A stretch of DNA of 64,000 nucleotides from Pseudomonas sp. N3-W. Its GTDB lineage: Bacteria > Pseudomonadota > Gammaproteobacteria > Pseudomonadales > Pseudomonadaceae. Within the stretch, counting starts at the first letter, position 1, and each line of letters begins with the position of its first letter. Both the position numbers and the translations under genes were made by a program. The notes under the pieces are model-generated. The model made no database searches. It saw only the letters and a list, made by a program, of their open reading frames with translations, and had not been told where the DNA came from. Shown one piece after another: positions 39,262 through 54,984 of this stretch. The stretch is taken from assembly GCF_024970185.1 (NCBI RefSeq), contig NZ_CP103965.1, positions 3,220,001-3,284,000 of the forward strand, read 5' to 3'.

Positions 39262-40071
39262 GTGAGCAACGACAACATGCTGAATCGGTCGGTCCCGTTA
39301 TTGACCGACATCGGAATCGAGAAACTCGCAGCGTGCAGCGTGGTGATCGCGGGCTGCGGAGGGGTGGGAGGCGCGATGGCTCTGACGCTCTGCCGGATGG
39401 GCGTCGAGACGTTCAAACTGGCGGACCCCGGCGTATTCGACCCGCCGGACATGAACCGTCAGTGGGCCGCCACCGGGCGCACGATGGGTCGCAACAAAGC
39501 GCTGGTCTATCGCGAGTTGATCCTTGATTTGAATCCCCGGGCCAAGGTCGAGATTTTTGTCGAGGGCATCACTGACAGCAATCAAGGCGAGTTTTTGTCA
39601 GGGGCCGACATCATGGTCGACTGTCTGGACGCCAGTGTGCCCTACAGCCTGAGAGAGTCGTTGCACCGCAAGGCTCGCCAACAGGGCATTTTCAGCGTCG
39701 TCGGTCCGATCATGGGCTTTGGCTGCTTTGCCATTTGTTCCTCGCCCAAGGGCCTGGGGATGGAGTTCTGGACCGAGACACTGAAGGTGGCCAAGGAGCA
39801 GGGCACATTGCCGCCGGTCTTTGATGAGATATTTGTACCGCAGCATATGCAGGCGATCGTTAAAAGCCTTGAAGTCGGCAAGGTGCCGACCGTTGCAGTC
39901 GGGCCGTTGATCGCCACCTCGTTGTTGGCAACCGAGTGCGTGAATTATTTGTTGCATGGCACGGTGCCGGGGTTCCGGGAGCCGATCGTTCTGCCGAAGG
40001 TGATGTTCTTCGATTTGAATCGGATGAACTACAAAGTCATCGACGTTTGCACGTTGAGCGAACCGGCATGA
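39262..40071 (+). CDS. ThiF/MoeB/E1-like adenylyltransferase
   Basis: A 269-residue Rossmann-fold adenylating protein. Start is GTG 39262 with AAGGAG 7 bp upstream. Nucleotide-binding GCGGVGG is at 31-37, DPGVFDPPDMNRQ at 55-67 carries the acidic residue and Arg of E1 enzymes, and the GRNKA lysine is near 79. The paired CxxC zinc sites of MoeB/ThiF are not visible. E1-like proteins activate a carboxylate as an acyl-adenylate, on a small carrier protein or a peptide; no ThiS/MoaD-like partner is encoded nearby. It is the first gene of the cluster and is coupled to the PLP-lyase gene by an ATGA overlap. Confidence 0.8.
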   Translation: MSNDNMLNRSVPLLTDIGIEKLAACSVVIAGCGGVGGAMALTLCRMGVETFKLADPGVFDPPDMNRQWAATGRTMGRNKALVYRELILDLNPRAKVEIFVEGITDSNQGEFLSGADIMVDCLDASVPYSLRESLHRKARQQGIFSVVGPIMGFGCFAICSSPKGLGMEFWTETLKVAKEQGTLPPVFDEIFVPQHMQAIVKSLEVGKVPTVAVGPLIATSLLATECVNYLLHGTVPGFREPIVLPKVMFFDLNRMNYKVIDVCTLSEPA

Positions 40072-41342
40072 ATGGCGTGGGGGATTCACCACAGACGCGT
40101 CGCAGCATCCTTGCGCAGGCGGGATTCAATCTCGATCTGGTCCCGGCTTGCCGGGTTGCCGATGACTATCAGACCGACAGTCTGATGAACGTTACCGTCA
40201 GTGCCCAGCCTTTGCCCGACGGGGACGACGGTCTCGATACGCGTTTGTCACAGTCTTTCAATGCCTTGTTCGGCATGCCGCTGGTCATTGCGGTGGCTCA
40301 GGGGCGAATGGCGGAAGCCATCCTCAGTAACGCCCTGGTTGTCCCCGGTGACCGTGTTCCCGGCAGCCTGCCGTTTCCGACAATGCAGGCCCACCTGCAG
40401 CGAAACGGCGCGGTGTCCGTGCCTGTCGCCGCTGCGAATGCGCAGCCCGACAGCGCGCTGTTCTGTGGCGATATAGACGTGGTCGCACTGGAACGCGTCA
40501 TTACGCAGGTCGGTCAGCGAGTGCCGTACCTGTTGCTGGAGGCGTGTACCAATGCAATCGGCGGCCACCCACTGTCCGTTGAAAACCTGCGAGCCATCCG
40601 GGAAGTTGCCGATCGTCACGAGATTCCGGTGTTCCTGGATGCCACGCGAATTTTCAGCAATGCCAGCCTGATCCGCCAACGGGCGCCCGGATGGCAGGAG
40701 CAGAGTGTCGAAGCGATTGTGCTCGAACTGTGTGCCTTGGCCGATGGGTTGCTGCTGAGTGCAACCAAGGAGTTCCCGTGCTCCATTGGCGGCTTTCTAG
40801 CCACGCGAAATCGCGATGTATTTCAACGCTGTCTCGATCAGACCCTGTTGTTCGGCGCGGGCCTCGATGTGTCGGCAAAGCGCCGGCTGGTAGTGGCGAT
40901 GTCGGATGCCCAGGGGCTGGTCGACGGCGTAGCCGAGCGTCTGCAGCGCGTTCGCAAATTTCAGGCATTGCTGGGGACGGATTGCCAGGCGACCCAACCT
41001 TCGGGCGCTCATGGCGTGTTCTTGAATGGCGGGGGGGCGCTTGAGGCCATACCCGGCCATCTGCATCCGGCCCGGGCCTTTCTGAATCACTTGTACGTGA
41101 AGTATGGAATCAGGGGGGCGCTCAATCCCGGAGCATCGGTTGAGAGCGGTGAGGCCTTGATTCGCTTTGCCGTGCCGATTGTCGGCAAAAGCGACAACGA
41201 CGTCGAGACCGCTGCTCGGTGCATTCGAGCCGCGCTCGCGGAAGCTGACGAGTTTGTTGCCCTTGAGGAGGTCAGTCGTCCCGTGGGTGTGAGCGGAGCA
41301 CTGATGGCCACCTACCGCCCCGTAGAGAGTATTGGATCGTGA
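40068..41342 (+). CDS. Tryptophanase/tyrosine phenol-lyase-like PLP enzyme
   Basis: A 424-residue fold-type-I PLP protein of the beta-eliminating lyase family. Hallmarks are EACTNAIGGHPLS (Asn162), FLDATRIFSN (Asp191, Arg194; compare DATR of tyrosine phenol-lyase) and the Schiff-base segment SATKEFPCSIGGFL (Lys234). Classical enzymes have a K-K-D at this last site where this protein has T-K-E, and it is about 35-45 residues shorter, so reaction specificity may differ. It could cleave or make a C-beta bond of an aromatic or other amino acid. Translationally coupled to both neighbours (ATGA at 40068, GTGA at 41339). Confidence 0.82.
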   Translation: MNGVGDSPQTRRSILAQAGFNLDLVPACRVADDYQTDSLMNVTVSAQPLPDGDDGLDTRLSQSFNALFGMPLVIAVAQGRMAEAILSNALVVPGDRVPGSLPFPTMQAHLQRNGAVSVPVAAANAQPDSALFCGDIDVVALERVITQVGQRVPYLLLEACTNAIGGHPLSVENLRAIREVADRHEIPVFLDATRIFSNASLIRQRAPGWQEQSVEAIVLELCALADGLLLSATKEFPCSIGGFLATRNRDVFQRCLDQTLLFGAGLDVSAKRRLVVAMSDAQGLVDGVAERLQRVRKFQALLGTDCQATQPSGAHGVFLNGGGALEAIPGHLHPARAFLNHLYVKYGIRGALNPGASVESGEALIRFAVPIVGKSDNDVETAARCIRAALAEADEFVALEEVSRPVGVSGALMATYRPVESIGS

Positions 41343-42178
41343 AATATTTATTCCTGTGGTTCAGTCTTCTGTTCTCCTCGCTGGTCTTCGGTGCGGCCTC
41401 GCCGTCAACCCCCGAACCCAGAGACATCATCTTTCGCTCGGAAGAGCGGCCAACCGGCAACGACTCGGTTTCAATGCTGGTCATTACCTTGACCGACAAG
41501 GCTGGCGTCGGCAGAAAGCGCGGTTTTATCTGGTATCACCTGAGCGGTGAACTGGGTGCACGTGACCTGCAGAAGTTTTTCTTCCCGCGCAGTATCAGGA
41601 ACGTGGCGACGTTCAATGAGGAAGTCAAAGGCGCGGAAGATTTGCAGTACCTGTACTTGCCTGCAGCCAGCAGGGTGCGTCGGGTTTCTTCCAAACACCA
41701 GACCTGGGTGGGGTCGGACCTGATTTACGAGGACCTGCAAAAGCTCAAGCTCGATGACTGGGATTTCAGCCTGGTGAGCAGCGCGAGCGAAGACGGATTT
41801 CCCGTTTACGTGATCGACTGTACCGCCAAGCCGTCGTCGAATTCAGCGTACGGCAAACGCCGCTACTTCATTCGCTCCGACGGTACGTATTTCCCGAGCC
41901 GGATCGATTTTTTCGATGCGAGCAATGCACTGATCAAACGCGTCGAGCGCAAAGATGTGCAGGCCTATGGTGATGCCCTTTATGAGCGGTTCGTGAATGT
42001 GACGGATTTCCGCAACGGGCATAGCACGTCGCTGGAGCGCAAATGGGTTCGGGTAAACACTGGCGTATCGGTGCCGATGGTCTCTCTTCGCCAGATGGAA
42101 CGGGGCATCGAACTTTACTCGGAGCCCTCGGACATCATGCGTTTGGTCGATGACGAGATGAGCAGGATGACGGAATGA
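41339..42178 (+). CDS. Outer-membrane lipoprotein-sorting (LolA-like, PF17131-type) protein
   Basis: A 279-residue secreted protein starting with GTG 41339. Its signal peptide (KYLFLWFSLLFSSLVFGA) is followed by a beta-rich domain with features of LolA-like proteins that accompany MMPL exporters (KRGFIWYHLSGELGARDLQK, LYLPAASRVRRVSSKHQTWV, SRIDFFDASNALIKRVERKD). Such proteins are thought to carry a lipidic molecule through the periplasm. Coupled to the previous gene and to the barrel gene downstream, and probably works with the MMPL protein at 51163. Confidence 0.78.
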   Translation: MKYLFLWFSLLFSSLVFGAASPSTPEPRDIIFRSEERPTGNDSVSMLVITLTDKAGVGRKRGFIWYHLSGELGARDLQKFFFPRSIRNVATFNEEVKGAEDLQYLYLPAASRVRRVSSKHQTWVGSDLIYEDLQKLKLDDWDFSLVSSASEDGFPVYVIDCTAKPSSNSAYGKRRYFIRSDGTYFPSRIDFFDASNALIKRVERKDVQAYGDALYERFVNVTDFRNGHSTSLERKWVRVNTGVSVPMVSLRQMERGIELYSEPSDIMRLVDDEMSRMTE

Positions 42179-43530
42179 ACTGGGCGCCTTTTACCCGGCT
42201 TCTCGGCCCGTTCGCCTTGATGGCCAGTAGCATCGCTGGAGCAGACGAAGCTGGCGAACCGTTCAGTTTCGCGCCGCTGAGTAATGGCCATACCACGACA
42301 ACGGGCTTCCTGGACTTGCGCAGTGACGTCGGGCTTGGAAGCGGCGACAAGAAGTCGGGGGCCGGCAGCCTCAAGACCGATGTCGATAGCGGTTACAGAG
42401 GCCGAGGACGGTTTGAACTGACTCATCAGATGGAAACGACCCGTCTGGTGCTGTCCGGTGATGCGCAGCTTGAGCGCGAGCGTATGCGTGGTGGTCCGGA
42501 CCACAATGACCAGACGGCGCGTGTTTGGGAAAGCTACTTGGAAATCGATGGGGAAAAGCTCAGCTGGCGCATCGGGCGACAGGTTATCCAATGGGGTGTG
42601 GCCGATGAAGTCAGTGTGATCGACAGCTTCACGCCCCAGGATTTCCGTAGTTTTCTTGTTCAATCCAGGTTTGAGCGCAAGTGGCCGGTGACCGCCGTGA
42701 GCAGCCGATATTTTCTGAGTGGCGAGGACTTTGTCGAGGTGGTCTGGCTGCCCGAATTCAGGGAAGACCTGCTGGCCCGGCCGGGAGAGGAGTGGAGCCT
42801 GTTTGTGGAAAACAATTACGTCAGGGGCCTGGGTCTGCGTGAGCGTTCTAGCGCCACGCAGAACGGGCGATTGGGTGACAGCGTATTCGCTGTTCGCAGC
42901 ATGACACGCCGGGAAACGTTCGATTTTTCGTTGAACTATGCCTACCACTTTGAGCAACTGGCGGCGTTTGAGGCGGACATCGAGGGTGTAGAACCCGATG
43001 GAAAGATGCTAGGGACGGTGCAGCCTTACCATGCTCGCCAACAGACCGCGTCCATGGCTTTCGAAACAGGGCGGGAGGGGATCGGATTACGCGGGGAGTT
43101 GGCCTATGTGACCGATTCGGGCTATGTCTCTTACGACATGAACGTACCGGGACTGGTTGAGCGGCGTGACACAGTAAGAGGGGTGGCGGGAATTGATTAC
43201 ACGTTCGCCTCGCGAACGTACATCAACGTTCAATACACCCTTGATTATATAAAAAACCATAATTCGATGATGCAGCCCGACAAATTTCGACCCAGTGTGA
43301 CCTGGCGAGTCAATACGCCGTTGGTGGGCGAAGACCTGTGGTTGGAGTTTCAGGGGCGAGAGTTTTTCAACATGACCGACAGGTTCTGGCGTTTACAGTT
43401 GCGCTGGCGAGTGACGGATGACTGGGAGTTACGCGGCGGCGGCCTGCATCTTGCGGGCGCTGACGAGGGTATTTTCGGACAGTTTCGTGACAATGACCAA
43501 GTGTATGTGGGTGCTCATTATTACTTCTGA
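42175..43530 (+). CDS. Outer-membrane beta-barrel, DUF1302-like
   Basis: A 451-residue exported protein. After a signal peptide (about 1-23) it is composed of alternating amphipathic strands and ends with an aromatic residue (VYVGAHYYF), the outer-membrane C-terminal signature. WRIGRQVIQWGVADEVSVID is a motif seen in DUF1302-type barrels. These occur with LolA-like and MMPL proteins in lipid or hydrophobic-compound export sets. It closes the four-gene coupled block (ATGA overlap at 42175). Passage of the cluster product across the outer membrane is inferred. Confidence 0.75.
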   Translation: MNWAPFTRLLGPFALMASSIAGADEAGEPFSFAPLSNGHTTTTGFLDLRSDVGLGSGDKKSGAGSLKTDVDSGYRGRGRFELTHQMETTRLVLSGDAQLERERMRGGPDHNDQTARVWESYLEIDGEKLSWRIGRQVIQWGVADEVSVIDSFTPQDFRSFLVQSRFERKWPVTAVSSRYFLSGEDFVEVVWLPEFREDLLARPGEEWSLFVENNYVRGLGLRERSSATQNGRLGDSVFAVRSMTRRETFDFSLNYAYHFEQLAAFEADIEGVEPDGKMLGTVQPYHARQQTASMAFETGREGIGLRGELAYVTDSGYVSYDMNVPGLVERRDTVRGVAGIDYTFASRTYINVQYTLDYIKNHNSMMQPDKFRPSVTWRVNTPLVGEDLWLEFQGREFFNMTDRFWRLQLRWRVTDDWELRGGGLHLAGADEGIFGQFRDNDQVYVGAHYYF

Positions 43531-43704: not shown

Positions 43705-44481
43705 ATGAATGGTAATAACGAAACGTTGAACTCGAACGCCTATCAGGCCCGGATGAATGTTGCCAGGGCGCAGTTTGCCAGGCGTGAGGACGTCCAGCAG
43801 CTTTTCAATTCGCCGCTGGACCCGGAACTGCTCAATCTGTTCATGATCCACTGGTGCGCGATGAGTGCCGCCTTGACCACGCCTATCCCTGAGTACCTGG
43901 CGACTGCCGGAGTACGTTGCGAGGCCTTGGGCTTGACTGACCTGGCAGAGTTTTTCAAGGAACACACCGAAGAAGAGGATGGGCATCACGAGTGGGCGGC
44001 TGCCGATACTCACAAGTTGGTGAAACTGTGGAACGAGCAGCAGCCAGCGTTGCAACTTGATGCCGAGGAACTGTTGTTTACGAACATGACTGCTTCGGTG
44101 CGCAACTATCATCAACTGCACAGGGATGTTGTATCAGGTGATGCTCCCTGGGCGGAATTGGCGATTGATGTCGAAATCGAATTGATCACCACGCAATACG
44201 GTCCTCCACTGTTAAAAGCGTGTGCAAGCGCACTGTGTGAAGAGTCGCGTAAAAGCATTTCGTTTCTCGCTGAACACGTGAACTTCGACTTTGGGCACAC
44301 CGATACCAACTTCCGGGTTGTTGCCGAATTGATTGAAGCCAAACCTGAGTTTACCGCCCATTTGGTCTCGATCGGTGAGCGCGCGCTCGATACGTATGGG
44401 GACTTCCTTGGCGAGGCACTGCACTTGGCCAAAAAGTCTTATGGCGTGCTGGAGCGCAATCGGACAGCGGTCGGCGCTTGA
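43705..44481 (+). CDS. Haem-oxygenase-like diiron oxidase family protein (HDO/CADD/UndA-like)
   Basis: A 258-residue all-helical protein with AGGAG before the ATG. Metal-ligand candidates follow the HDO pattern: an acidic/His cluster EHTEEEDGHHEW (86-97), a helix glutamate in DVEIELITTQYG (Glu157/159) and the diagnostic H-x3-D-x2-H as HVNFDFGH (His191, Asp195, His198). HDO enzymes use non-haem iron and oxygen to oxidise amino acids, fatty acids or their own side chains. In this cluster it is a likely tailoring oxidase. It starts a new sub-block 174 bp after the barrel gene. Confidence 0.8.
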   Translation: MNGNNETLNSNAYQARMNVARAQFARREDVQQLFNSPLDPELLNLFMIHWCAMSAALTTPIPEYLATAGVRCEALGLTDLAEFFKEHTEEEDGHHEWAAADTHKLVKLWNEQQPALQLDAEELLFTNMTASVRNYHQLHRDVVSGDAPWAELAIDVEIELITTQYGPPLLKACASALCEESRKSISFLAEHVNFDFGHTDTNFRVVAELIEAKPEFTAHLVSIGERALDTYGDFLGEALHLAKKSYGVLERNRTAVGA

Positions 44482-44532: not shown

Positions 44533-45654
44533 ATGTCGAAAAAAGTTTGTGGTACGTGCTTGCTTACCGATGATGTCGAGGGTGTTGCACTTGATTCGGA
44601 TGGCATTTGCAACGTGTGCCGTATATGGCAGGGCGGCGGCGAGCAACGCCAGGAGCAGCAGCGCATGCATTTCCAGAAAGACCTGGAAGCAACATTGCGC
44701 GCAGCAAAGGGCAGTGGCAAACAGTATGACTGCATTGTTTCTTTCAGCGGAGGAAAGGACAGCTGTTACTTGCTGCATCGGCTCGTGGTCGACCATGGCT
44801 TGAAGGTGCTGGCTTATACAAGCGATTACGACATACCGCCCAGAACCTGGGAGAACATACGGCGAACGGTCAAGGCCCTGGGGGTTGATCACCATGTGCA
44901 CAAGCCGTCGCTGACGCTCTACAAACGCTTTATCCGACATTTGTTGATGAATCAGGGACCCAAGGGTGCCGTTCATACCGTGTGTTACTTCTGGCTGGAT
45001 ATTCGCGAGGGCGACTTGCTGCGCTTCGCGTTGGACAAAGACATTCCGCTGATTTTTACCGGCTACTCGCCGGGGCAACCAGACCCTGAGCGGATGCTTT
45101 ATGAGATGCCGCCGGCACGAATTGCCCGGGACTGGACGCCTCACGAACTGTTCCGCAGCGGCGTGTTCCAGGAGCATGAACTCGCGTTGTTCTGGAACCC
45201 CCGGCGTTATGCCGCCGGTGTGACGTTGCCCAGAATCCTGGCGCCGTTCCATGCCTGGGATTACGACCAGGCAAAGGTCACCGCCAAGGTCATCGAACTG
45301 GGGTTGGTACAGGACCGGATTCACGCCAATCCGGTGCTCAGCAATTTCACCCTGAACTGGCTGCTGATGTATTCCGATCTGAAAAATCTCGGGCACAACC
45401 CTTACAAGCCGGAGTTTTCCAAGCTGGTTCGCGAAGGCAAGGCCAAGCGGCTGCAGTGGCGGATCGTCTTCGCGCTCATGGACTTCATGGTGCGCAAGCA
45501 GATCCTGATGGGCCGTCATATCAAAAAGTCGCTGCAAGACCTTGAGCTTCAACTCGACGATCTGAAAATGGCGCCCCCGGCAGCCGTTACGCCGACATCG
45601 AGCGGCACTCAAGTGCATTCAGACACCATGGGCAAACCCCGGGATTACGCGTGA
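44533..45654 (+). CDS. PP-loop ATPase / N-acetyl sugar amidotransferase-like protein
   Basis: A 373-residue adenine-nucleotide alpha hydrolase. An N-terminal Cys4 knuckle (Cys6, Cys9, Cys26, Cys29; CGTC and CNVC) precedes the PP-loop SFSGGKDS (70-77), the layout of WbpG/PseA/LegB-type amidotransferases. Those enzymes adenylate a carbonyl or amide oxygen and install an amidine using ammonia from a HisFH-type partner; related PP-loop enzymes insert sulfur. No HisFH-like partner or sugar gene is nearby, so the substrate is probably not a sugar. AAGGAG lies about 9 bp upstream. Confidence 0.8.
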   Translation: MSKKVCGTCLLTDDVEGVALDSDGICNVCRIWQGGGEQRQEQQRMHFQKDLEATLRAAKGSGKQYDCIVSFSGGKDSCYLLHRLVVDHGLKVLAYTSDYDIPPRTWENIRRTVKALGVDHHVHKPSLTLYKRFIRHLLMNQGPKGAVHTVCYFWLDIREGDLLRFALDKDIPLIFTGYSPGQPDPERMLYEMPPARIARDWTPHELFRSGVFQEHELALFWNPRRYAAGVTLPRILAPFHAWDYDQAKVTAKVIELGLVQDRIHANPVLSNFTLNWLLMYSDLKNLGHNPYKPEFSKLVREGKAKRLQWRIVFALMDFMVRKQILMGRHIKKSLQDLELQLDDLKMAPPAAVTPTSSGTQVHSDTMGKPRDYA

Positions 45655-45778: not shown

Positions 45779-46591
45779 ATGAACAACGATTCTGCGCGGG
45801 ACGCCTTGTTTGACGGGTTCACCGAGTTCGAGTTTTCCCACGCCGACGTCAAGCGTGTGGTGTATCGCCGAGGTGAGGGGCCGGGCGTCATTCTGATGCA
45901 TGAAGTCCCTGGGCTTCATGAGGGGGTCGTACGTTTGGCAAGGCAACTGGCGAGCGCGGGTTTGAGTGTCTGGATGCCCGTGCTTTTCGGCTCGCCCGGG
46001 GTGGCTGTGACACCTGTGTCGGTGGCGGTATGCATGGGAAAAGTCTGCATCTCCAGAGAGTTTCGGGTATTGGCAGGGCGCAAGACCAGCCCGATTACTG
46101 ACTGGCTGCGTGCACTTGCCCGTCATGCGCATGCTGCTTGTGGCGGGGAAGGGGTCGGGGTCGTCGGGATGTGCCTGACGGGTGGTTTTGGCTTGGCCAT
46201 GATGGCGGATGCCTCGGTCATTGCCCCTGTCCTGGCAAACCCTTCGCTGCCGTTCGCGTTGTCGGCGGGGCAGGGACGTGCCCTGGGGATTGATGAGCAA
46301 ACACTCCAGGCGGTCAAGGAGCGCTCGGCTGTCGAGAACATACCGGTACTGGGCTTGCGCTTCACCGGGGACCCGGCGGTTCCGAATGCACGATTCGAAC
46401 GGTTGCGAGAGGAGTTCGGCAGCCGGTTCGACTCATTTGAAATCGATTCATCGTCGAGCAACGCCCATGGAATCAGCCGCTGGGCGCACTCCGTGCTCGG
46501 GGTCAGTTACTGCGACGAAGAGAACCACCCGACCCGGTTGGCAGAACAGCGGGTAATCGAATTCTTGAAACGCCAGCTTGCAAAAGCCTAG
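45779..46591 (+). CDS. Dienelactone hydrolase-family alpha/beta hydrolase
   Basis: A 270-residue alpha/beta hydrolase. The nucleophile elbow is GMCLTGG (Cys132), the cysteine form typical of dienelactone hydrolases. Asp198 (FTGDPAVP) and His230 (SSNAHGI) complete the triad. The oxyanion region is LMHEVPGLHEGV. Start ATG 45779 is chosen by family alignment; the ribosome site is weak. It may open a lactone or an activated ester, or act as a thioesterase-like release enzyme in this cluster. Spaced by 124 bp from the PP-loop gene and 177 bp from the antiporter gene. Confidence 0.82.
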   Translation: MNNDSARDALFDGFTEFEFSHADVKRVVYRRGEGPGVILMHEVPGLHEGVVRLARQLASAGLSVWMPVLFGSPGVAVTPVSVAVCMGKVCISREFRVLAGRKTSPITDWLRALARHAHAACGGEGVGVVGMCLTGGFGLAMMADASVIAPVLANPSLPFALSAGQGRALGIDEQTLQAVKERSAVENIPVLGLRFTGDPAVPNARFERLREEFGSRFDSFEIDSSSSNAHGISRWAHSVLGVSYCDEENHPTRLAEQRVIEFLKRQLAKA

Positions 46592-46768: not shown

Positions 46769-48055
46769 ATGAATTCGGGAATCATATTCATACAGTTGCT
46801 CTTGATACTGTGCGTGGCTCATGCCCTGGGACGGGTAGCGTACTGGTGTGGCCAACCTGCGGTTATCGGCCATCTGCTGGCCGGTGTGATTGCCGGCCCG
46901 ATGGTATTGGGCCAATACCATCCCGAGCTCCGGACGTATCTGTTTTCCAACGTCGTGGGCCTGATGGCACTCAGCAAAATCGGACTGGTGTTCATCATGT
47001 TCGGCCTGGGCCTGGAGGTGGGCAAAAGCGAAAAAGCGACGGGGGCAGTAAACGGTCGCGGTGTCGTCGCCATTGCGGTCGCCGGTTTCCTGGGCGCCGG
47101 ACTGGCAGGCATGCTGCTGGGCTATTTCACTCACGGCACCTTCGCCGCAGGCACGGACCGAGGGCCATACATGCTGTTCTTTGGAGTGGCGATGGCGGCC
47201 ACTGCCGTGCCGGTGCTGGCCGCCATCCTCGACGACAGGCGTTTTTTGCACCATCGCCTGGCCCCATTGGTTCTGAACGCCGCGGTGGTCACCGACATTC
47301 TTGCCTGGTTTGCCCTGTCGGTGGTGTTGGTTTCACTGTCCAGCGGTGGGCTCAAGGGTATCTTTTTCTCCAGTGTCACCCTCGTGGTGCTGGTGATCGT
47401 GGCCGAATTCATGATCAGCCGCCGCTATTCGTCAGCCGCGTCTGCAAAGCCAGGGGCTGATTCGACAAAGGTGCTTGTTGCGGCGCTGATCGTTCTGTTT
47501 GCCTTCTGCGTCGTCACCGATCTGGCCAACGCGCACGTCACCATCGGAGCCTTTATCGCCGGCCTGGCCTTTCGCAAGCACAGCGTTCTGCGGGAGTTCT
47601 GGGAAAAAGGCCCGCACGCTTTAGTGAGCCAGTTCTTTACGCCGTTATTTTTTGGCACCGCGGCTATGAACGTGGCAATCAATGCAGCCGATTGGCCAGA
47701 ACTGCTGATGTGGGCCGGCGTATTTTTCCTGGTGGGCGGGGCGGGAAAAGTGGGCATGTCTTATCTCTCTGCCAGGGTCACCGGTCTTTCGAAGTCCGAC
47801 GCCTTGGTGGTCGCAACGCTGATGAATACCAAGGGAGTGATGGAGATCATCTTGTTGACGGTGGGACTGGAGATCGGGGTCATCTCTGCGCAGCTCTACG
47901 CCATCCTGATGGTCGTCGCGTTGGTGGCAACCGTTATCACCTTGCCGGTGGTTCGACTGATACCGCTCAGCAAGGCTGCGCCGAGTGCAACGAACACCGT
48001 CCTGCGTTCAGCTCACAAAGAATCGAAAAAGCGCCCATTGATGGACAGTGTCTGA
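46769..48055 (+). CDS. CPA2-family cation:proton antiporter (KefB/GerN-like)
   Basis: A 428-residue polytopic membrane protein with about 12-13 helices. ATG 46769 is preferred because AAGGA lies 8 bp upstream; ATG 46760 is too close to it. It shows the CPA2 start pattern (CGQPAVIGHLLAGVIAGPMVLG) and the discontinuous ion-path helix region (VLNAAVVTDILAWFAL, with the conserved Asp). No C-terminal TrkA-N domain follows, so KefC-type regulation is absent. In natural-product clusters such antiporters often give self-resistance or export. Its role here is unknown. Confidence 0.88.
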   Translation: MNSGIIFIQLLLILCVAHALGRVAYWCGQPAVIGHLLAGVIAGPMVLGQYHPELRTYLFSNVVGLMALSKIGLVFIMFGLGLEVGKSEKATGAVNGRGVVAIAVAGFLGAGLAGMLLGYFTHGTFAAGTDRGPYMLFFGVAMAATAVPVLAAILDDRRFLHHRLAPLVLNAAVVTDILAWFALSVVLVSLSSGGLKGIFFSSVTLVVLVIVAEFMISRRYSSAASAKPGADSTKVLVAALIVLFAFCVVTDLANAHVTIGAFIAGLAFRKHSVLREFWEKGPHALVSQFFTPLFFGTAAMNVAINAADWPELLMWAGVFFLVGGAGKVGMSYLSARVTGLSKSDALVVATLMNTKGVMEIILLTVGLEIGVISAQLYAILMVVALVATVITLPVVRLIPLSKAAPSATNTVLRSAHKESKKRPLMDSV

Positions 48056-48193: not shown

Positions 48194-49375
48194 ATGACAC
48201 TAATAATGCCTTTGTTGAGTGCAGACGTAGACAGTCGATGTGTTGGCGAGGAGCATTTATCGGTACAGCAGTGCACCCTTATGGATGCTCCCGTTATGCC
48301 GATGTATGGGCGCATAACGGGCGGGCTTCATGCTGTCGAGAGTATTGCGCGGGTCATTGAATTGACGGAAGAACGACTGATCTTGCGGGCCGATACGTGC
48401 CTGGTCGTGGATACCCGGTACGAAGTCAGTATTCAGGATGATGTGGCCGGACGAGAGCTTTCATTTCAGGTCGTCATTACTTATGTCGAACCTGAGCAGA
48501 CGCCAGGGGAGTGGTTTGTTCTCTGTCAGCCCGCTTGCGGCGGTGCAAGAAATGCCTGGTCACGAGATATCAGAAACCTGTGTCAGCGATTGCGTGTCGA
48601 TCGGGCGATGGCGCAAGAAAACCGCCAACCGGGTGGTCAACTGGTCAGGTCGCTGGGCCATCACTCCCAGTCGTCCAGCGTCTGCTTCGGCAACGCCAGG
48701 GCCGTTGATGATCGAGAGGCTGCCTACCGACTGGTGTATGACGCCTATTTTCGCAAGGGGTTGGCGGAGCCCGCCGATAACGGGTTGTTTACCAACGAAT
48801 TTCTACTCAATCCGGAGACTGTGACCTTCGTCGGCAAAGTGCTGGGCGAGGTTGCGATGACAGTCACCTCTATTGCCGACTCTGTCGACCAATTACCCAT
48901 GGATGCGGTGTTCGAAGATTGCCTGGCACCGTTGCGCAAGGAAGGGCGGCGCCTGGCCGAGTTCGGCATGCTGGCCGTCAACCCGGCATTCTTCGGGGCC
49001 ATCGCCTACACCGTGCATGACCCAGACAAAATGGTCACGGTGTACTCGTTGTTTCGTATCGCATTGCAACATGCAAAGTTCGCAAAAAACTACACGGACA
49101 TCGTATTTGCCATTCCGCCCAAGCATCAGGCGCTGTATCGATTCATGGGCGTTAATGCCATTTCAGAAGTTCGCTATTACAGCAAGTACAACACCCCGGC
49201 CGTGGCGATGCGGATTGACTTGCTGGCGCTGAATCTACGTCCACACGTTCGAGAGTTTCTCTTTGGTACACCGATTTCAACACTGAATGAAATCGGCCAA
49301 ACGGAGTGGTCGGCAGACGCACTGGAAAGAATATTCGGGGGCGTCGGCGCAACGACTGCGCCGCTGGAACTTTGA
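48194..49375 (+). CDS. N-acyl amino acid synthase, FeeM-type GNAT protein with N-terminal beta domain
   Basis: A protein of about 393 residues. The start at 48194 (MTLIMPLLSAD) has GAGGGA 8 bp upstream; upstream TTG/GTG starts are possible. The C-terminal part (about 165-345) matches the FeeM/autoinducer-synthase-like GNAT fold (DREAAYRLVYDAYFRKGL, GRRLAEFGMLAVNP, FRIALQHAKFAKNYTDIVFA, YRFMGVNAISEVRYYS). FeeM enzymes transfer a fatty acyl group from acyl carrier protein to an amino acid. The N-terminal ~115 residues form a beta-rich domain resembling PilZ in outline but without an evident RxxxR/D-x-S-x2-G c-di-GMP motif. It probably supplies the acylated core of the cluster product. Confidence 0.78.
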   Translation: MTLIMPLLSADVDSRCVGEEHLSVQQCTLMDAPVMPMYGRITGGLHAVESIARVIELTEERLILRADTCLVVDTRYEVSIQDDVAGRELSFQVVITYVEPEQTPGEWFVLCQPACGGARNAWSRDIRNLCQRLRVDRAMAQENRQPGGQLVRSLGHHSQSSSVCFGNARAVDDREAAYRLVYDAYFRKGLAEPADNGLFTNEFLLNPETVTFVGKVLGEVAMTVTSIADSVDQLPMDAVFEDCLAPLRKEGRRLAEFGMLAVNPAFFGAIAYTVHDPDKMVTVYSLFRIALQHAKFAKNYTDIVFAIPPKHQALYRFMGVNAISEVRYYSKYNTPAVAMRIDLLALNLRPHVREFLFGTPISTLNEIGQTEWSADALERIFGGVGATTAPLEL

Positions 49376-49421: not shown

Positions 49422-50567
49422 ATGGATAGGGTAATAAAAGCGGTTAACGGCAGTTCGGCGTTTGACTTCCCCACGATTGACCTGAGCCACGACCCACAGA
49501 TTGGCCGTGTGACCAGGATGCAGTATTGGGCCGATTTTTTGCGCCGGTATTACTTTGTCGGGCGCAAGGACCATGGTCCTTATGGAACACCAAAATGCGT
49601 CGAACGGACCAAAAGCATCGAGGCACGCGTACTCGCTCAATCCAGGGAATATGGCGACGCGCCAACCTTGCCCGTGCCTGAAGTCTCGATGAAGGATCTG
49701 ACACCGGAGAACTTCCACAAGATCTATCTGGAGCCCAACACGCCGGTGGTATTTCGCGGGGCCGCAAAGGACTGGGAAGCGGTCAAGAAATGGACCCCGG
49801 AATTCTTTGCAGAACATTATGGAGACGTCAAGGTAGCGACTCGGGTACGGGGGACTGAACTCAACGAAAAGGCCCTGCAGTACATCGATCTGCCGTTGTC
49901 GGAAGTCGTGGAAAACATCAGGAACGGTGGTTCCTATTACCCGGGACACACTGAGGACCTTTTCAATAAACACCCGGAACTCAGAAATGAACTGGACCTT
50001 GATACTCTGGGCAAGTACCTGAGCACCCGAGACAAACGCATCATGTCCACCCAGCTGTTTCTTTCAGCAGGTGGCGTTATTTCCGGTTGGCACTGCACCG
50101 GCGGTCCCAACCTGTTCACGATGGTCAATGGCGTGAAGAAGTGGACGTTCGTTCACCCCAAACACTCCATGTGGATGCACCCCATTACCCGCAAGGATAT
50201 GTTCTATGCGGCGACCATGTTGGACTGGCGAAAAAGTCATGATGAGATCGAGGCTGACGGCTACCCGTTGTATCGCTACATTCCAAAATACACGACTACG
50301 CTGGAGGCGGGCGACGTGCTGTTTTCGCCGCACTGGTGGTGGCATTGCGTTGAAACACCGGTGCCTTCGATCGCCATTGCCTCACGAGCGATCAACAAGT
50401 TGGTGATGGGCAACAAGATGTTTTCCCTGATGTGGATTACGTCGCCGCGGTTCCGGCAAACCGTGATGACGGTGCTCAAGGACGGCTGGGGATCGGACAA
50501 GGCCACCGGTGCCAAGCTGGCTTTTGAATTCGATACCGAGGAATTCGTCAGACGCGTATCGCGCTAA
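49422..50567 (+). CDS. Cupin-8/JmjC-like protein with altered metal triad
   Basis: A 381-residue protein. The cupin-8/JmjC-type core spans about 95-325. The first metal segment reads SGWHCTGGPNLFTMVNGVKK (His224-Cys-Thr226) where HxD/E is normal; a likely 2-oxoglutarate-contact lysine follows (Lys239/240), and the distal His is in FSPHWWWHCVE (His308). If active it would be an Fe(II)/2OG-type oxygenase lacking the carboxylate ligand, a feature otherwise known from 2OG halogenases. It may also be inactive or structural. It follows the FeeM-type gene by 46 bp, so N-acyl amino acid is a plausible substrate. Confidence 0.75.
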   Translation: MDRVIKAVNGSSAFDFPTIDLSHDPQIGRVTRMQYWADFLRRYYFVGRKDHGPYGTPKCVERTKSIEARVLAQSREYGDAPTLPVPEVSMKDLTPENFHKIYLEPNTPVVFRGAAKDWEAVKKWTPEFFAEHYGDVKVATRVRGTELNEKALQYIDLPLSEVVENIRNGGSYYPGHTEDLFNKHPELRNELDLDTLGKYLSTRDKRIMSTQLFLSAGGVISGWHCTGGPNLFTMVNGVKKWTFVHPKHSMWMHPITRKDMFYAATMLDWRKSHDEIEADGYPLYRYIPKYTTTLEAGDVLFSPHWWWHCVETPVPSIAIASRAINKLVMGNKMFSLMWITSPRFRQTVMTVLKDGWGSDKATGAKLAFEFDTEEFVRRVSR

Positions 50568-50680: not shown

Positions 50681-51115
50681 ATGAACACCGTTTTGTATAG
50701 CTATGCGCTGTGTGTGCTGGTGTTGTTTGTGAAGATGTTTGCAATCTCCTGTTATCAAGGGGTCTATCGCATTGGTCGCCTGACCTTCAAGAATGCCGAG
50801 GATGCCAGGTTTGTCGGTCGTCCTGCCAGTGACCAGGAACTGCCCCAGGTCTCGCGTGCGGCGCAGGCATGGATGAATGACCTGGAGAATATCCCGTTGT
50901 TTTTTGCGCTGGGCGCGCTCTATGTCATGGTCGATGCTCCCGCAGAACCCTCCATCTGGTTGTTCTCCGTATTTACCGGTGCCCGCGTGGTGCACACCGT
51001 GACTTACCTGGCACGTTGGCAGCCGTGGCGTACGCTCTCTTACGCCGTGGGTATCGCGTGCCTCTTCGGTATGGCCGGGATCATCCTTTCAACACTGGCC
51101 GAGCGGACTGTCTAG
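50681..51115 (+). CDS. MAPEG-family membrane protein
   Basis: A 144-residue protein with four membrane helices in the MAPEG layout (microsomal glutathione S-transferase 1-like). The glutathione/charge motif between helices 1 and 2 and in helix 2 is recognisable (DLENIPLFFALGALYV), and helix 3 has the family TGARVVHTVTYL pattern. A strong AAGGAG lies 7 bp before the ATG. MAPEG enzymes conjugate or reduce lipophilic substrates with glutathione in the membrane. With the soluble GST at 53511 it suggests glutathione chemistry or detoxification in the cluster. Confidence 0.85.
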   Translation: MNTVLYSYALCVLVLFVKMFAISCYQGVYRIGRLTFKNAEDARFVGRPASDQELPQVSRAAQAWMNDLENIPLFFALGALYVMVDAPAEPSIWLFSVFTGARVVHTVTYLARWQPWRTLSYAVGIACLFGMAGIILSTLAERTV

Positions 51116-51162
51116 TCGTCGATCAATTGTGACCAGGCTGCGCTGACAAGTGGGGTGACGTT

Positions 51163-53457
51163 GTGTACACAGCTTTATTGATTCGCTTTCTGGTGAAGTG
51201 GCGCAAAGCCAATGCGTTGGTGGCGATCCTTGCTATTTTCGCCATTTCTCCCGGTGTACTCCAGACGCGCTTCGATGCGTCGGTCGAGTCCTTTCTGCCC
51301 CAGGGGGATGTTGAACGTCAACGCTATGACAGTTTCAAGGAGGTCTTCGGTGATGACCGCATGGTGGTGGTTGCCTTGCCGCCTCAGACGGTGTTCAACG
51401 CGCAGGTGTTGGCGCAGTTAAAGGCAGCCAGCGAGAACATCGAGCGTTTACCCGATGTCGCACGAGCGACCAGTATTGCGACGGTCAACATCATTTATGG
51501 CCAGGACCAGTCGATTGACATATTGCCCGCTGCGGACGCCTTGGAGCAGCCGGCCCTCTATGATCCGCAGCGGATTATCGACAAGCTGCGCAACAACTCG
51601 CTGTATCAGCGTGACCTGATTTCTCTGGACGGTCAGGTCGCAGCCATTCTTGTTGAGGCTCGCACAGGCGGTGATAACGCCAGGTTCGAGCGAATCCTGC
51701 CCGTCATTCGCGAACAGATGCACGCGGCCGGTTTTTCCCGGTTCTATGTCGCGGGTGAGCCGGTGGTTGAACACCAGGTGACCAGCGATATGTGGTCGGA
51801 CCTGAAAACGTTCATCCCGCTGACCTCGCTGGTGCTGTTTGTCTTGTTGCTGGTGCTGTTGCGCAACCTTGGCGACGTGTTTGTGGTGCTTGCGATCGTG
51901 ACGTTATGCACGCTGCTGTTGCTCGGTGCCATGGGGACACTGTCTATTGCGGTGAACGCGGTGACGGTCGGATTACCCTCGGTGCTGATGTGTATCGCGG
52001 TCCTCGACTGCCTGCATATCCTCGACACTTACCGTCAGTCCCTGAGTAGCGCAATGACAAAAGTCGAGGCCCTCCAGCGCACCCTGACGGTTAACCTCAT
52101 ACCCTGTTTTCTGACTTCATTCACCACGGCCATCGGCTTTCTGACCCTCGCGATCAGCGAGGTAGCGCCCATCAGAGAATTCGGCGTGATCGCGTCGCTG
52201 GCAGCCATTGGCGCTTATGTCATCTCGCTGATGGTGATGCCGAGCCTCCTTGAGTGCATGCCCGTCAGGCGGGCGCGCAAGGCGCCTACTTATCATTATG
52301 CAAACTGGGTCAAACGGCTGGAACCGTTTTACCGGTCCCGTCGTCTCTTGCCGGTGCTGACCGCATTGGCGGTGCTGGCGGCAGTGATTCCGATCGGGCG
52401 GTTGCATGTGGAAGCCTCGTTCCTGAACTTTATCGACAAGCTGGCCCCGGTCAGGGTGTCGACAGATTTCATCGAACAACAACTGGGCGGCGTTGCCAGT
52501 CTGGAAGTCAGCCTGAGAACGGCACAGAAGGGCGGCGTGCTGGAGCCGGCCGCCCTGGAAGAAATTGCCGCCTTGCAAGCGTTCGTCGCGAAGCTCAATG
52601 GCGTGGACAAGAGCCTGTCCGTTGTCGATTTCATCAAAGACATTCATCGCGAGATGAACGGTGGCGACGCGCGTTACTACCGTTTGCCGGGTAACCGGGA
52701 GGCGGCCGAGCAGTATGTGTTCACCTATTCGCTTGCCGGGCCCGACCACGAGTTGAAAAGTTTCCTGGACTACGACAACCAGACGACCCGCGTTCGCATT
52801 CGCCTCCAGCAATTGCCTTATGCTGAAATGCAGCAGGTCATTGAGGCGGTGAAGGGGTATGCCGCCGCGCGTTCCTCAAGTGCTTTCACCTTCAGCCTGA
52901 CGTCCTATTCGGTGATCCAGGCCGTGATGGTGCAGAAACTGCTCGAAGGCATGTTGTGGGGAATCGGCTTTGCGGTTGTTTCGATGTTCGTGGCATTCGT
53001 GATGTTGACCCGTTCATGGCGGATATCGGCCATCGCCGTCGTTGCAAACACATTGCCGTTGGTGGCGGTCTTTGGCTTGATGGGCGCCCTGGGGTTATCG
53101 ATCAATATCGGTACTTCGATGATCGCCTGCATCATCTTTGGCCTGGTCGTGGACGCCTCGTTGCATTGCTTCTATCACGCCAAGCACTTCGCAGACGGCG
53201 CATCGACTGCGCAGCGGGTCAAGGCAATTTTCGAGGATACCGGGGAGGCGTTGTTGACGGGTGGTCTGGTACTTTGCGCAGGCTTCCTGGTGCTGGTCCT
53301 GGGTGAGTCCTATTTCACCCGACTGTTTGGCGCTTTTTGTGCCTTGGCAATACTGATCTCGGTGTTCTGCAACGCGGTCGCCATTCCCTACCTGATCTAT
53401 CACTTTACTGACAGTGAGCGGCCAAGTACCGAGGCCAATCCCGTGTTGGGCACCTGA
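51163..53457 (+). CDS. MMPL-family RND exporter
   Basis: A 764-residue membrane protein starting with GTG 51163. It has one N-terminal helix (about 18-34), a periplasmic domain (about 35-220), five helices (about 222-360), a second helix/periplasmic domain pair and five C-terminal helices, giving the 12-helix MMPL plan in two repeats. This family exports lipids and hydrophobic products. Together with the LolA-like (41339) and barrel (42175) proteins it could form an envelope-spanning export route. Spaced 47 bp after the MAPEG gene. Confidence 0.9.
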
Positions 53458-53510
53458 AAGGCCCGACCACAACGCCATGCCTGGATGAACACCTGTTCAA
53501 GGATGAACCA

Positions 53511-54203
53511 ATGATCGATTTGTATACCTATGCGACTCCCAACGGCTGGAAGGCCTCCGTCATGCTGGAAGAACTCGCCGTGCCTTATCAGGTCAGGACG
53601 GTTGACCTGATGGCGAGAGAACAGCACACGGAAGCCTTTACGGCGTTGAACCCGAATGGGCGCATCCCCGTCATTGTCGACCGCGATGAGGATGATTTCT
53701 GTGTGTTCGAGTCGGGTGCCATCCTGATCTATCTGGCTGAAAAACACGACGTCTTGCTGCCCCGCGACCACAAGCGTCGATCGGTGGTGATGCAGTGGCT
53801 CATGTTTCAAATGGGTGGGGTGGGACCGATGATGGGGCAGGCCAACGTGTTCCATCGTTACTTTGCGGAAAAAATCCCCAGCGTCATTAGCCGTTATCAG
53901 AATGAAGCCAAACGCTTGTTAACGGTCCTCGACCGGCGACTGGCGACGCAAGAGTATCTGGCTGGCGATTACAGCATTGCCGACATCGCCAACTGGTGCT
54001 GGGCGAGGAGCCATGAGTGGTCGGGTGTCGAGATCCTTGACCTGCCTCATTTGCAACGGTGGCTGGCGGCAATCGAGCAGCGACCTGCCGCACAGCGCGG
54101 GGTCCGGGTTCCTTTCGATATCAGTGACGTCTTTGGCGCTGGCCGCCAGTCGGCATCTGCCGAAACGTATGCTCGCGCCGGTCAGACATTGTTTGTCCCC
54201 TGA
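53511..54203 (+). CDS. Glutathione S-transferase (Nu-class/YfcG-like)
   Basis: A 230-residue cytosolic GST. The N-terminal thioredoxin domain ([48 protein letters not shown]) and C-terminal helical domain ([20 protein letters not shown]) are complete. The TPNGWK start is the Nu-class pattern with Thr-Pro-Asn in place of a catalytic Ser/Tyr. It lies 53 bp after the MMPL gene and may detoxify or conjugate cluster intermediates. Confidence 0.9.
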
Positions 54204-54345
54204 GGCCCGCAAACGATCTCCTGGCCGATGCCGGGAGTTGCGGGCCATACCAGAACATCAAAATAACAAGGCTGGTTCTGCTCACTTGCAAGCACGTCGA
54301 GTGGCTAGCCAATCAGAACGTCAACCAACCCGTGTGTGGTGCCAG

Positions 54346-54984
54346 ATGTCCCAGCAATCAGTTTTGTTAAACAGGGCAGGTCGCCCGAAGGATCAAGCCA
54401 AACGTAAAGCTGTTCTCGAAGCGGCGAAGTGTCTTTTTTTGCGAAAGGGGTATGAGGGCAGCAGCATGGATGCCATTGCCGCGGAGGCCGGGGTTTCCAA
54501 GCTGACTATCTATAATCACTTCAGCGACAAGGCAACGCTGTTCTCCGAGGCGATCACGGCCAAATGTGATGAGCAATTGCCTGAGCGACTGTTCGAGTTT
54601 TGCCCAAAGGCCAGTGTCGAGAGCGTGCTGCTCATGATCGGGCGCAATTACTATGAACTGATCAGCAGTCAGGAAGCGGTAGAACTGCAACGCATTGTGG
54701 TGGCAATGGCCAATCAGGAACCCAGGCTCGCCCGGATGTTCTACGAGGCGGGAGCGCAACACATGGTGCGCGAGATGAGCAAATTGTTGATCCAGGCGAC
54801 CCATGCAGACCGGCTTCGAGTCGAAAATCCCGGAAAAGCGGCTGAGCGTTTTTTCTGTCTGCTCAAAGGAGACGACTATTTCCGCGTGCTGATCGGTATT
54901 TGCCCACCGCTTGTGGGGGAGGAGGCTGAACAGCATGTTCGCGAAGTGGTGGGGTTGTTCATGAATCTCTATCGTTGTAGCTGA
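54346..54984 (+). CDS. TetR/AcrR-family transcriptional regulator
   Basis: A 212-residue regulator. The N-terminal HTH (about 18-65; SSMDAIAAEAGVSKLTIYNHFSDK) is followed by an all-helical ligand domain. The start at 54346 is chosen from the length of the family N-terminus; ribosome-site support is modest. It closes the cluster, 142 bp after the GST gene, and is the natural candidate for controlling it, possibly through dyads in the leader near 38644-38685. Confidence 0.9.
   Translation: MSQQSVLLNRAGRPKDQAKRKAVLEAAKCLFLRKGYEGSSMDAIAAEAGVSKLTIYNHFSDKATLFSEAITAKCDEQLPERLFEFCPKASVESVLLMIGRNYYELISSQEAVELQRIVVAMANQEPRLARMFYEAGAQHMVREMSKLLIQATHADRLRVENPGKAAERFFCLLKGDDYFRVLIGICPPLVGEEAEQHVREVVGLFMNLYRCS

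Follow-up and report, generated by a model that had tools for sequence, protein, structure and literature searches.

Fourteen consecutive plus-strand genes of Pseudomonas sp. N3-W, at 39277-54984 of the 64,000-nt window (the whole stretch of DNA that was analysed), constitute a very rare cluster and form one unit. From the anatomy and conservation of the cluster we infer its product: tentatively but plausibly, this would be a horizontally mobile island for an exported, N-acylated and heterocyclised amino acid of the azolone type, with a step that introduces sulfur (or nitrogen). In the best reading the amide oxygen would be replaced by sulfur (or nitrogen), with self-protection of a glutathione type; the sulfur step is less likely than the overall claim of a real cluster whose product is N-acylated and processed by the E1. 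An earlier note had proposed accessory biosynthetic genes whose product is not recognised, which is supported: the neighbourhood is conserved (see below), and none of the characterised clusters in the literature searched matches it exactly; the open literature likewise yielded no description of this cluster.

The ORFs encode 144-764 aa, and the block starts at 39262 if the in-frame upstream start of g01 is chosen (Table 1). The first four genes overlap by 4 nt and the remaining intergenic gaps are 46-177 nt, figures that depend on the chosen start codons. The GC content of the cluster genes (0.54-0.61) is mostly below that of the surroundings, and that of the leader stretch 38001-39000 is 0.477. 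Homology with three relatives stops near 38105 in the leader, where three 17-nt repeats at 38834-38958 are candidate operator sites through which the TetR regulator (g14) would repress the putative operon. Pfam matches above cut-off comprise ThiF, Beta_elim_lyase, LolA_like, DUF1302, DLH, Na_H_Exchanger, FeeM, Cupin_8, MAPEG, MMPL, GST_N, and TetR with an AefR-type C-terminus, while the assignments of the heme-oxygenase-like diiron oxidase (HDO) and the PP-loop enzyme fall under the family-model cut-offs yet hold, the former by predicted structure and the latter by its TIGR03573 match. The run of 14 plus-strand genes and the domains named for them in the earlier note are borne out by the ORFs and by Pfam, NCBIfam and structural modelling, though that inventory omitted the CPA2 antiporter.

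Table 1. Features of the cluster, with positions in the window
Feature	Position	Strand	Evidence
AT-rich leader	38105..39276	+	ends of homology, candidate operator repeats
g01 ThiF/E1-like adenylating enzyme, probable N-acyl amino acid cyclase	39277..40071	+	PF00899 1.5e-30
g02 TPL/tryptophanase-like PLP lyase	40068..41342	+	PF01212 4.9e-34
g03 LolA_like periplasmic protein	41339..42178	+	PF17131 6.4e-34
g04 DUF1302 outer-membrane barrel	42175..43530	+	PF06980 3e-9
g05 heme-oxygenase-like diiron oxidase (HDO)	43705..44481	+	model and PDB matches
g06 PP-loop ATPase, WbuX type, with Cys78 and Cys151	44533..45654	+	TIGR03573 3.1e-29, below cut-off
g07 dienelactone-hydrolase-family protein (DLH)	45779..46591	+	PF01738 3.9e-10
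g08 CPA2 monovalent cation/proton antiporter, distantly Kef-like	46769..48055	+	PF00999 1e-35
g09 FeeM-type N-acyl amino acid synthase	48194..49375	+	PF21926 3e-35, above cut-off
g10 Cupin_8/JmjC-fold, His224-Cys-Thr226...His308	49422..50567	+	PF13621 3.8e-27; alignments to 8a82, JMJD5
g11 MAPEG membrane protein	50681..51115	+	PF01124 1.2e-26
g12 MMPL/HAE3 RND-type exporter	51163..53457	+	PF03176 6.9e-21; TIGR00921 2e-40
g13 glutathione S-transferase (GST)	53511..54203	+	PF02798 9.4e-14; PDB 4eci 1.3e-83
g14 TetR regulator, AefR-type C-terminal domain	54346..54984	+	PF14246 4.8e-27, PF00440 3.3e-15

The same gene order is present in six Pseudomonas records (five besides the window), with the GST absent from the searched stretch in three of the six. 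Seven core genes (E1, TPL-like lyase, GST, HDO, PP-loop, cupin-8, and MAPEG) occur together in all three cyanobacterial loci, in an order that differs from that of Pseudomonas and with 40-73% identity of the core proteins; the DLH is found in two of these loci, the contig of the third stopping before its position. A single MAG fragment (L042) holds six of the cluster genes and additionally a serine acetyltransferase gene. This recurrence outside the window, in five Pseudomonas records, three cyanobacterial loci, and one MAG fragment, exceeds chance, and the synteny check revealed a conserved neighbourhood, not scattered homologues. At least seven and probably eight proteins, each of a different family, have thus kept company across two distant phyla, which marks them as one pathway. 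No match to MMPL, LolA_like, DUF1302, TetR, or a recognisable FeeM was found in the three cyanobacterial loci, from which the antiporter is likewise missing, placing these functions outside the shared core; the export set of the earlier note, although present in the window as MMPL, LolA_like, and DUF1302, is therefore not part of that core.

Acyl-oxazolone synthesis is the nearest known logic, and the cluster resembles that family in its working without being a member. The known set combines FeeM-type N-acylation, ThiF cyclisation, and a nitroreductase (PMC10404671, PMC12856293). As in oxzAB of Pseudoalteromonas rubra and tyzACB and trzAS of Mycobacterium, a FeeM-like synthase is paired here with a ThiF-type protein, a probable ATP-dependent cyclase, and the tyz genes are flanked by mmpL and cysK1/cysE (PMC10404671), with an MMPL gene also present in this cluster. 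The earlier statement that no described pathway with this set is known holds, in the literature searched, for the set as a whole, but FeeM and E1 form the first half of the acyl-oxazolone logic. N-acyl synthase chemistry is supported by the PF21926 match and by the alignment of g09, which carries about 170 extra N-terminal residues, to PDB 2g0b (1.1e-15): Glu256 occupies the catalytic position (chain position 96, with a one-residue offset assumed from the Glu95 of FeeM; PMC4897644), and the catalytic Glu is thus kept.

The E1 and FeeM proteins (g01 and g09) both match PRK14852, in separate stretches of the model (34-199 and 317-543). The top NCBIfam models of g01 are PRK08223, PRK14851, and PRK14852, with every NCBIfam match under cut-off; the same three are ranked first by two of the nearest non-cluster E1s, while three more distant E1 rows rank TcdA first. 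Among the 29 nearest non-cluster relatives, a FeeM/Acetyltransf_5 gene adjoins the E1 in ten (FeeM above cut-off in eight of these) and a nitroreductase domain lies within the E1 ORF in seven; no such acyltransferase was found within the short stretch examined around each of the other 19. Unlike the E1s of oxz, tyz, and trz, those of the cluster group in a separate clade that does not fall within the FeeM/nitroreductase-linked E1s, and because they join three TcdA-like rows over very long branches in the midpoint-rooted tree, its root is unsure. A gene that was not recognised directly precedes the E1 in all three cyanobacterial loci; at this FeeM position there was no Pfam acyltransferase match even at E 10 and no FeeM profile similarity, and the predicted structure (pLDDT 40) was useless. 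A FeeM search of three non-Pseudomonas genomes returned one sub-cut-off match away from the cluster and no match in the other two.

None of the 14 proteins matched the nitroreductase model PF00881 at E 0.1, so the cluster has no counterpart of the desaturation established for oxazolone synthesis, in contrast to oxz, tyz, and trz, beyond which the cluster adds the HDO, PP-loop, TPL-like lyase, DLH, cupin-8, MAPEG, GST, CPA2, and LolA/DUF1302 functions. In the available part of PMC12479983, most stieleriacine, kyonggic acid, and thalassotalic acid clusters pair an N-acyl synthase with a ThiF gene, as here, but wherever ThiF occurs a nitroreductase gene accompanies it, and that part mentions no HDO/PP-loop/lyase set. 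The HDO assignment of g05 is upheld despite a sub-cut-off Pfam score (PF14518, 23.2 bits; cut-off, 28.9), as the predicted structure (pLDDT 89.5) resembles the solved structures 3dde, HrmI, CADD, and UndA, indicating a heme-oxygenase-like fold, which AetD also shares. A sequence search found no solved relative at a convincing E-value. The H-x3-D-x2-H motif, which we take to be the helix motif typical of HDOs, is present in the cluster HDOs of all ten loci; conserved Glu/His positions also occur, and these residues are candidate diiron ligands. If the HDO acted as a desaturase in place of the nitroreductase, the cluster could encode a plain N-acyl amino acid or acyl-oxazolone pathway, and the substrate of the PP-loop, lyase, and cupin would be the precursor amino acid, not the acyl amide. 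The FeeM/E1 pairing, the lack of PF00881, and the resemblance of the g05 model to UndA (desaturase/decarboxylase in its PDB title) fit this account, which is nonetheless unlikely: the cyanobacterial clusters keep the PP-loop, lyase, and cupin while FeeM is unrecognisable, the cluster E1s are a separate clade, and UndA is just one among several HDOs of similar Z.

The amidine- or sulfur-type modification proposed earlier is supported as a live possibility. Against TIGR03573 (WbuX) g06 scores 102.5 bits (cut-off, 203.2) with residues 4-180 of 373 covered, and it matches PDB 8wex at 4.6e-12. With WbuX/WbpG it has in common the PP-loop motif and four cysteines in the N-terminal part, these cysteines being present in 16/16 sugar-amidotransferase-like proteins, while the C-terminal half is divergent and two cysteines are added; a column test found Cys151 in 9/9 cluster members examined versus 0/16 sugar-amidotransferase-like relatives and Cys78 in 9/9 versus 3/16. 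Extra cysteines can be structural. HisH had one match per genome in all eight cluster-bearing genomes (E <=1e-20, a threshold under which a very divergent copy could fall), and no HisH gene was found beside the cluster. A standard WbuX/WbpG amidotransferase is not supported, with the TIGR03573 cut-off not reached and no dedicated HisH partner found at that threshold in the eight genomes. Lack of a second HisH in these genomes and the extra cysteines make sulfur no less likely than nitrogen. That g06 is a true amidotransferase, forming an amidine whose nitrogen would come from free ammonia or some other donor before the E1 closes an imidazolone, and with the TPL-like lyase making or trimming the amino acid, is rather doubtful; its best family match is indeed an N-acetyl sugar amidotransferase and the four shared cysteines agree, yet the score is half the WbuX cut-off over part of the protein, and the single HisH and the Cys78/Cys151 of the cluster argue against it.

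For the sulfur reading, the lyase g02 is the candidate donor. Alignment to 1c7g indicates that the TPL residues Lys257, Asp214, Arg217, His343, and Arg404 are kept (with TPL/tryptophanase, g02 shares the lysine, Asp, and Arg of the PLP site and the Arg for the carboxylate), while the position of Tyr71 is variable and the loop that holds Arg381 is deleted. The TIGR02618 score is 167.5 bits (cut-off, 720.7), and four aligned relatives are 40-64% identical to the window's copy. A true tyrosine phenol-lyase is not supported, as Tyr71 and Arg381 are needed for phenol leaving-group chemistry. According to PMC3870968, Arg381 is also deleted in the listed PKS-embedded PLP domains, leinamycin's included, and the Tyr is replaced in one, the modelled domain, so that g02 has the deletion in common with leinamycin-type SH domains and the Tyr loss with the modelled one; in the leinamycin family, the SH domain is known as a thiocysteine lyase (PMC8479088). 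Unlike these embedded domains g02 is a stand-alone enzyme, and its profile is nearer TPL than any PKS-embedded chain among the matches listed.

The cupin-8 protein (g10) has His-[Cys/Ala]-Thr in 10/10 copies, with Thr replacing the iron-binding Asp, where JMJD5 has His-Gln-Asp and 8a82, the nearest solved relative, aligns Gly. A standard 2-oxoglutarate hydroxylase facial triad (His-x-Asp...His) was accordingly rejected for all ten copies. The Thr, the Gly of 8a82, and the unmatched FeeM, MMPL, LolA, and DUF1302 in the three cyanobacterial loci would suit a core whose product is a small, reactive metabolite and not a lipid (a nitrile, N-oxide, or halogenated compound derived from the HDO, with cupin-8 as a JmjC-type halogenase) and a FeeM that acylates late, in Pseudomonas only, for export or masking. 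Aetokthonotoxin synthesis also combines an HDO with a tryptophanase, and AetD itself is among the matches listed. This scenario is nevertheless improbable, since the known 2-oxoglutarate halogenases have, to our knowledge, Gly or Ala and not Thr at the Asp position, and the cyanobacterial gene before the E1 could be a divergent acyltransferase.

In the preferred reading, FeeM would N-acylate an amino acid and the PP-loop enzyme would use ATP on the new amide oxygen, as do sugar amidotransferases of its family, with sulfur from a cysteine-type substrate via the TPL-like lyase instead of ammonia from a HisH glutaminase, turning the amide into a thioamide (or an amidine, should nitrogen be the atom used). 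The E1 would adenylate the carboxylate and close a five-membered ring, comparable to the ThiF-type cyclases of oxazolone synthesis, and the HDO, replacing the absent nitroreductase, would oxidise the product, perhaps together with cupin-8. Taken in full, as a thio-azolone/thioamide lipo-amino-acid pathway spread to Pseudomonas and cyanobacteria by horizontal transfer, with lyase-derived sulfur, a PP-loop thiotransferase acting on the N-acyl amide, E1 ring closure, and tailoring by an Asp-less JmjC-fold enzyme, this proposal is somewhat doubtful. Were the sulfur reading true, the folds of an amidotransferase and of a tyrosine lyase would have been turned into a pair that inserts sulfur into a small molecule; were it wrong, the cluster would still likely add a new, E1-dependent branch to lipo-amino-acid chemistry that includes a JmjC-fold enzyme without a standard iron ligand, and under either reading the pathway is compact enough to express heterologously. 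The N-acyl synthase, export set, and conserved cluster of the earlier interpretation persist, while it missed the antiporter and the oxazolone kinship, and three of its assignments are altered: the lyase (PF01212) lacks residues needed for tyrosine, the PP-loop amidotransferase, a WbuX-type match, has extra cysteines and no second HisH in eight genomes, and the cupin-8 protein (PF13621) lacks the usual iron-binding Asp.

The remaining genes may have a role in protection and export. The GST, MAPEG, CPA2 antiporter, and DLH hydrolase would guard against or trim the electrophilic ring, and in Pseudomonas MMPL, LolA-like, and the DUF1302 barrel would deliver the lipid to the outer membrane. The antiporter matches the NCBIfam models TIGR00932 (2.8e-33) and KefB (5.2e-7), and alignment of the DLH points to a putative Cys132-Asp198-His237 triad.

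A full-length orthologue of the PP-loop protein, at ~80% identity, is present in four of 397 other genomes in the genus sample, and the cluster neighbourhood is present in all four (a further 15 of the 20 matching genomes, among 398 in the genus, have a partial PP-loop match alone and were left out of the cluster count). All fourteen genes occur in two of these loci, and in the other two the GST is absent from the 20 kb fetched. Two PP-loop peptide patterns, run against a genome collection of 84,980 species, picked up seven loci, of which four belong to Pseudomonas and one each to Nostoc flagelliforme, Microcystis aeruginosa, and a MAG fragment binned under the label Dehalococcoidales. The fourth Pseudomonas locus of the scan (L037) also lacks the GST and may be from the same species as another Pseudomonas locus, L033; the other three, L038, L039, and L040, were taken as contigs of genomes G768, G770, and G785 from the genus sample, and each was counted once. 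The HDO was found in one of 398 genomes of the phylum, that of the window itself, and, for the Nostoc phylum, in three of the 339 genomes searched. Recurrence across six records from Pseudomonas, three loci from cyanobacteria, and a single MAG fragment rules out a chance neighbourhood, and no description of the gene set was found in the open-access full-text literature searched for it.

The three cyanobacterial loci share the order cupin-8, MAPEG, an unrecognised gene (217–233 aa), E1, lyase, GST, HDO, and PP-loop, followed in two of them by the DLH, with the third contig stopping short of the DLH position. Identities to the window proteins are 72–73% for cupin-8, 64–66% for E1, 63–64% for PP-loop, 55–57% for DLH, 54–59% for MAPEG, 49–53% for HDO, 47% for GST, and 40–41% for the lyase. 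Over the stretches compared (tblastn, 1e-5), none of the three cyanobacterial loci gave a match to the LolA_like or barrel protein, and none of the four non-Pseudomonas loci to the antiporter, FeeM, MMPL, or TetR protein. The unrecognised gene, directly before E1, is possibly the missing acyltransferase of the cyanobacterial clusters; a Pfam scan at E 10 gave only one chance-level match (DHDPS), hhalign against FeeM gave no support for an acyltransferase, and the structure model was uninformative (pLDDT 40.2). Two of the cyanobacterial clusters, in Nostoc (L041) and genome G1125, also contain a secreted-looking protein of 246–267 aa with a C-terminal motif that we take to be PEP-CTERM-like, 67% identical between the two genomes and without a Pfam match in the one copy scanned.

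The MAG fragment (L042) carries LolA_like, barrel, HDO, PP-loop, DLH, and cupin-8 genes, and its bin label looks doubtful due to the presence of LolA and outer-membrane barrel genes. A serine acetyltransferase gene lies between its DLH and cupin-8 genes; cysE/cysK1 also flank the tyz genes of Mycobacterium, as described in PMC10404671. Amongst the Pseudomonas, all five other loci possess a gene of the bile-acid-symporter family (SBF/BASS), which was seen between the DLH and the antiporter in four of them. The window lacks this gene, and a search for a remnant there came up empty (best E 0.33). Genes recognised by eye adjoin the cluster in two of these loci, a trans-sulfuration-type PLP enzyme in L033 and L034 and an Lrp-type regulator in L034, and may simply reflect the genomic site of the cluster.

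Coordinates of sequence features in the window and in the loci compared
Feature	Locus	Coordinates	Strand	Remark
ACYGMCRRGTTTAWTTA copy 1	window	38834-38850		
ACYGMCRRGTTTAWTTA copy 2	window	38915-38931		
ACYGMCRRGTTTAWTTA copy 3	window	38942-38958		
Unrecognised gene before E1	L041 (Nostoc)	5226-5927		
Unrecognised gene before E1	L043	5355-6008		
Unrecognised gene before E1	L050	3497-4180	-	
Secreted-looking protein, copy 1	L041 (Nostoc)	11096-11878		
Secreted-looking protein, copy 2	L041 (Nostoc)	12343-13146		
Secreted-looking protein	G1125			between PP-loop and DLH
Transposase-like ORF	L041 (Nostoc)	11-535		
Transposase-like ORF	G1125, contig C4			upstream of cupin-8
Serine acetyltransferase gene	L042 (MAG fragment)	5036-5983		
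BASS-family gene	L035 (Pseudomonas)	9704-10606		equivalents in other loci
Trans-sulfuration-type PLP enzyme gene	L033 (Pseudomonas)	18703-19962		
Trans-sulfuration-type PLP enzyme gene	L034 (Pseudomonas)	18009-19268		
FeeM fused to cyclic-nucleotide-binding domain	L067	2297-3484		

Of nine flanking genes of the window that were checked, none adjoins the cluster in four of the other Pseudomonas loci. In three relatives without a lyase match at 1e-3 (G006, G021, and G029), DNA homology to the left flank (83–87%) stops at window positions 38098–38115, ~1.2 kb upstream of the first gene. This end point suggests an island that includes the AT-rich leader (0.477 GC); an empty insertion site was not seen, as the right-flank genes were outside the 6–10 kb fetched in the three relatives. 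Based on neighbourhoods conserved in two phyla and the evidence from the flanks, we read the cluster as horizontally transferred. Transposase-like ORFs, recognised by eye near two cyanobacterial clusters, fit such mobility. Plasmid-borne relatives were ruled out, with the PP-loop query matching eight of 72,556 plasmid records and none with 80% query coverage.

PRK14852 is matched by both the FeeM (positions 34–199) and the E1 (317–543) of the cluster, and E1 matches at 1e-15 occur in 60 of 274 genomes of the class. The 63 matches listed include the gene of the window; loci were available for 30, and the 29 non-window loci were used. Neighbouring ORFs (n = 55) were assigned by a greedy longest-ORF choice within a short stretch, so that more distant neighbours were not seen. 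An ORF with Acetyltransf_5 and FeeM occurs near E1 in 10 of these 29 nearest loci, with FeeM above the cut-off in eight of the 10 (one ORF checked per locus, 10 of the 11 in the group), and in seven of the 29 a nitroreductase domain lies within the E1 ORF. This combination is that of the acyl-oxazolone route, as outlined in PMC10404671 and PMC12856293, in which FeeM-like N-acylation is followed by ATP-dependent cyclisation by ThiF and desaturation by a nitroreductase-type oxidase. One of the 10 FeeM ORFs (L067), beside a non-cluster E1 gene, also carries a cyclic-nucleotide-binding domain and may encode an N-acyl amino acid synthase under second-messenger control; fusions of FeeM enzymes to the PilZ (c-di-GMP-type) domain are known cases (PMC4897644). 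The extra N-terminal region of the cluster FeeM (g09) had no Pfam match.

In the E1 tree, all seven cluster E1s used group in a single clade (98/91), separated from 26 of the 29 others. The remaining three sit beside it on a very long branch and act as an outgroup, as TcdA ranks first for them, but the root of the tree is unsure. The cluster E1 (g01) is under the cut-off in every NCBIfam model matched, and there is no nitroreductase among the 14 cluster proteins. Due to the separate clade, the sub-cut-off matches, and the missing nitroreductase, the cluster was not filed as an acyl-oxazolone member; it probably shares the first steps of that pathway.

The lyase keeps, by alignment, TPL Lys257, Asp214, Arg217, His343, and Arg404 (as Lys234, Asp191, Arg194, His315, and Arg366), the residues for PLP and the carboxylate. 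It lacks TPL Tyr71, and the Arg381 position falls within a deletion; these active-site losses rule out a plain tyrosine phenol-lyase or tryptophanase. The loss of Arg381 is shared with the PKS-embedded PLP domains listed in PMC3870968, including that of leinamycin, and the loss of the tyrosine with the domain modelled there, in which it is replaced. The SH domain of the leinamycin family is described as a thiocysteine lyase (PMC8479088). Four N-terminal cysteines of the PP-loop protein are common to all 16 sugar-amidotransferase-like proteins compared (distant relatives, one a 171-residue frame), whereas Cys151 and Cys78, both present in 9/9 cluster members examined (of 10 loci, L037 left out), occur in 0/16 and 3/16 of them, respectively. 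At an E-value threshold of 1e-20, HisH gave a single match in each of eight cluster-bearing genomes, so no dedicated sugar-pathway-type glutaminase was seen and, with no second match, a WbpG-type sugar pathway was ruled out. Given the lyase changes, the PP-loop cysteines, and the lone HisH together, the inserted atom may well be sulfur.

The cupin-8 protein has His-Cys/Ala-Thr at its motif in 10/10 copies; the aligned residues are His-Gln-Asp in JMJD5 and His-Gln-Gly in 8a82, its nearest relative of solved structure. The altered motif rules out a canonical 2OG hydroxylase. The protein may be a two-histidine oxygenase, of which AspH is an example (PMC10947486), a halogenase-like variant, or no oxygenase. 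No subfamily stands out among the structural matches of the HDO in the VIA listing, and therefore no reaction type was ruled out.

MAPEG and GST belong to families of glutathione enzymes, and the antiporter to CPA2, with weak similarity to KefB (5.2e-7). Glutathione adducts open KefB/C, which would fit an electrophilic azolone; as no regulatory domain besides PF00999 was recognised in the antiporter, a Kef-like role is only a suggestion. The presumed export set consists of the MMPL, LolA_like, and DUF1302 proteins. PF17131 also occurs in two of the 55 neighbours of other E1 genes, and DUF1302 had no match among solved structures. MMPL paralogues are many in the eight genomes counted, too many for the exporter of the cyanobacterial product to be picked out.

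Scans for sigma-70 promoters and terminators gave scores at or under shuffle level. The 17-nt degenerate pattern ACYGMCRRGTTTAWTTA has three copies in the 64 kb window, all upstream of g01 and all perfect in a search that allowed two mismatches; 0.03 copies are expected by chance, a value that overstates the surprise because the pattern was written after the region was seen. No matching repeats were reported in the L033 and L035 stretches, and GTTTAA-type half sites are also found upstream in the alignment of L033 and L034. The repeats are putative operators, for which the TetR protein of the cluster is the natural candidate.
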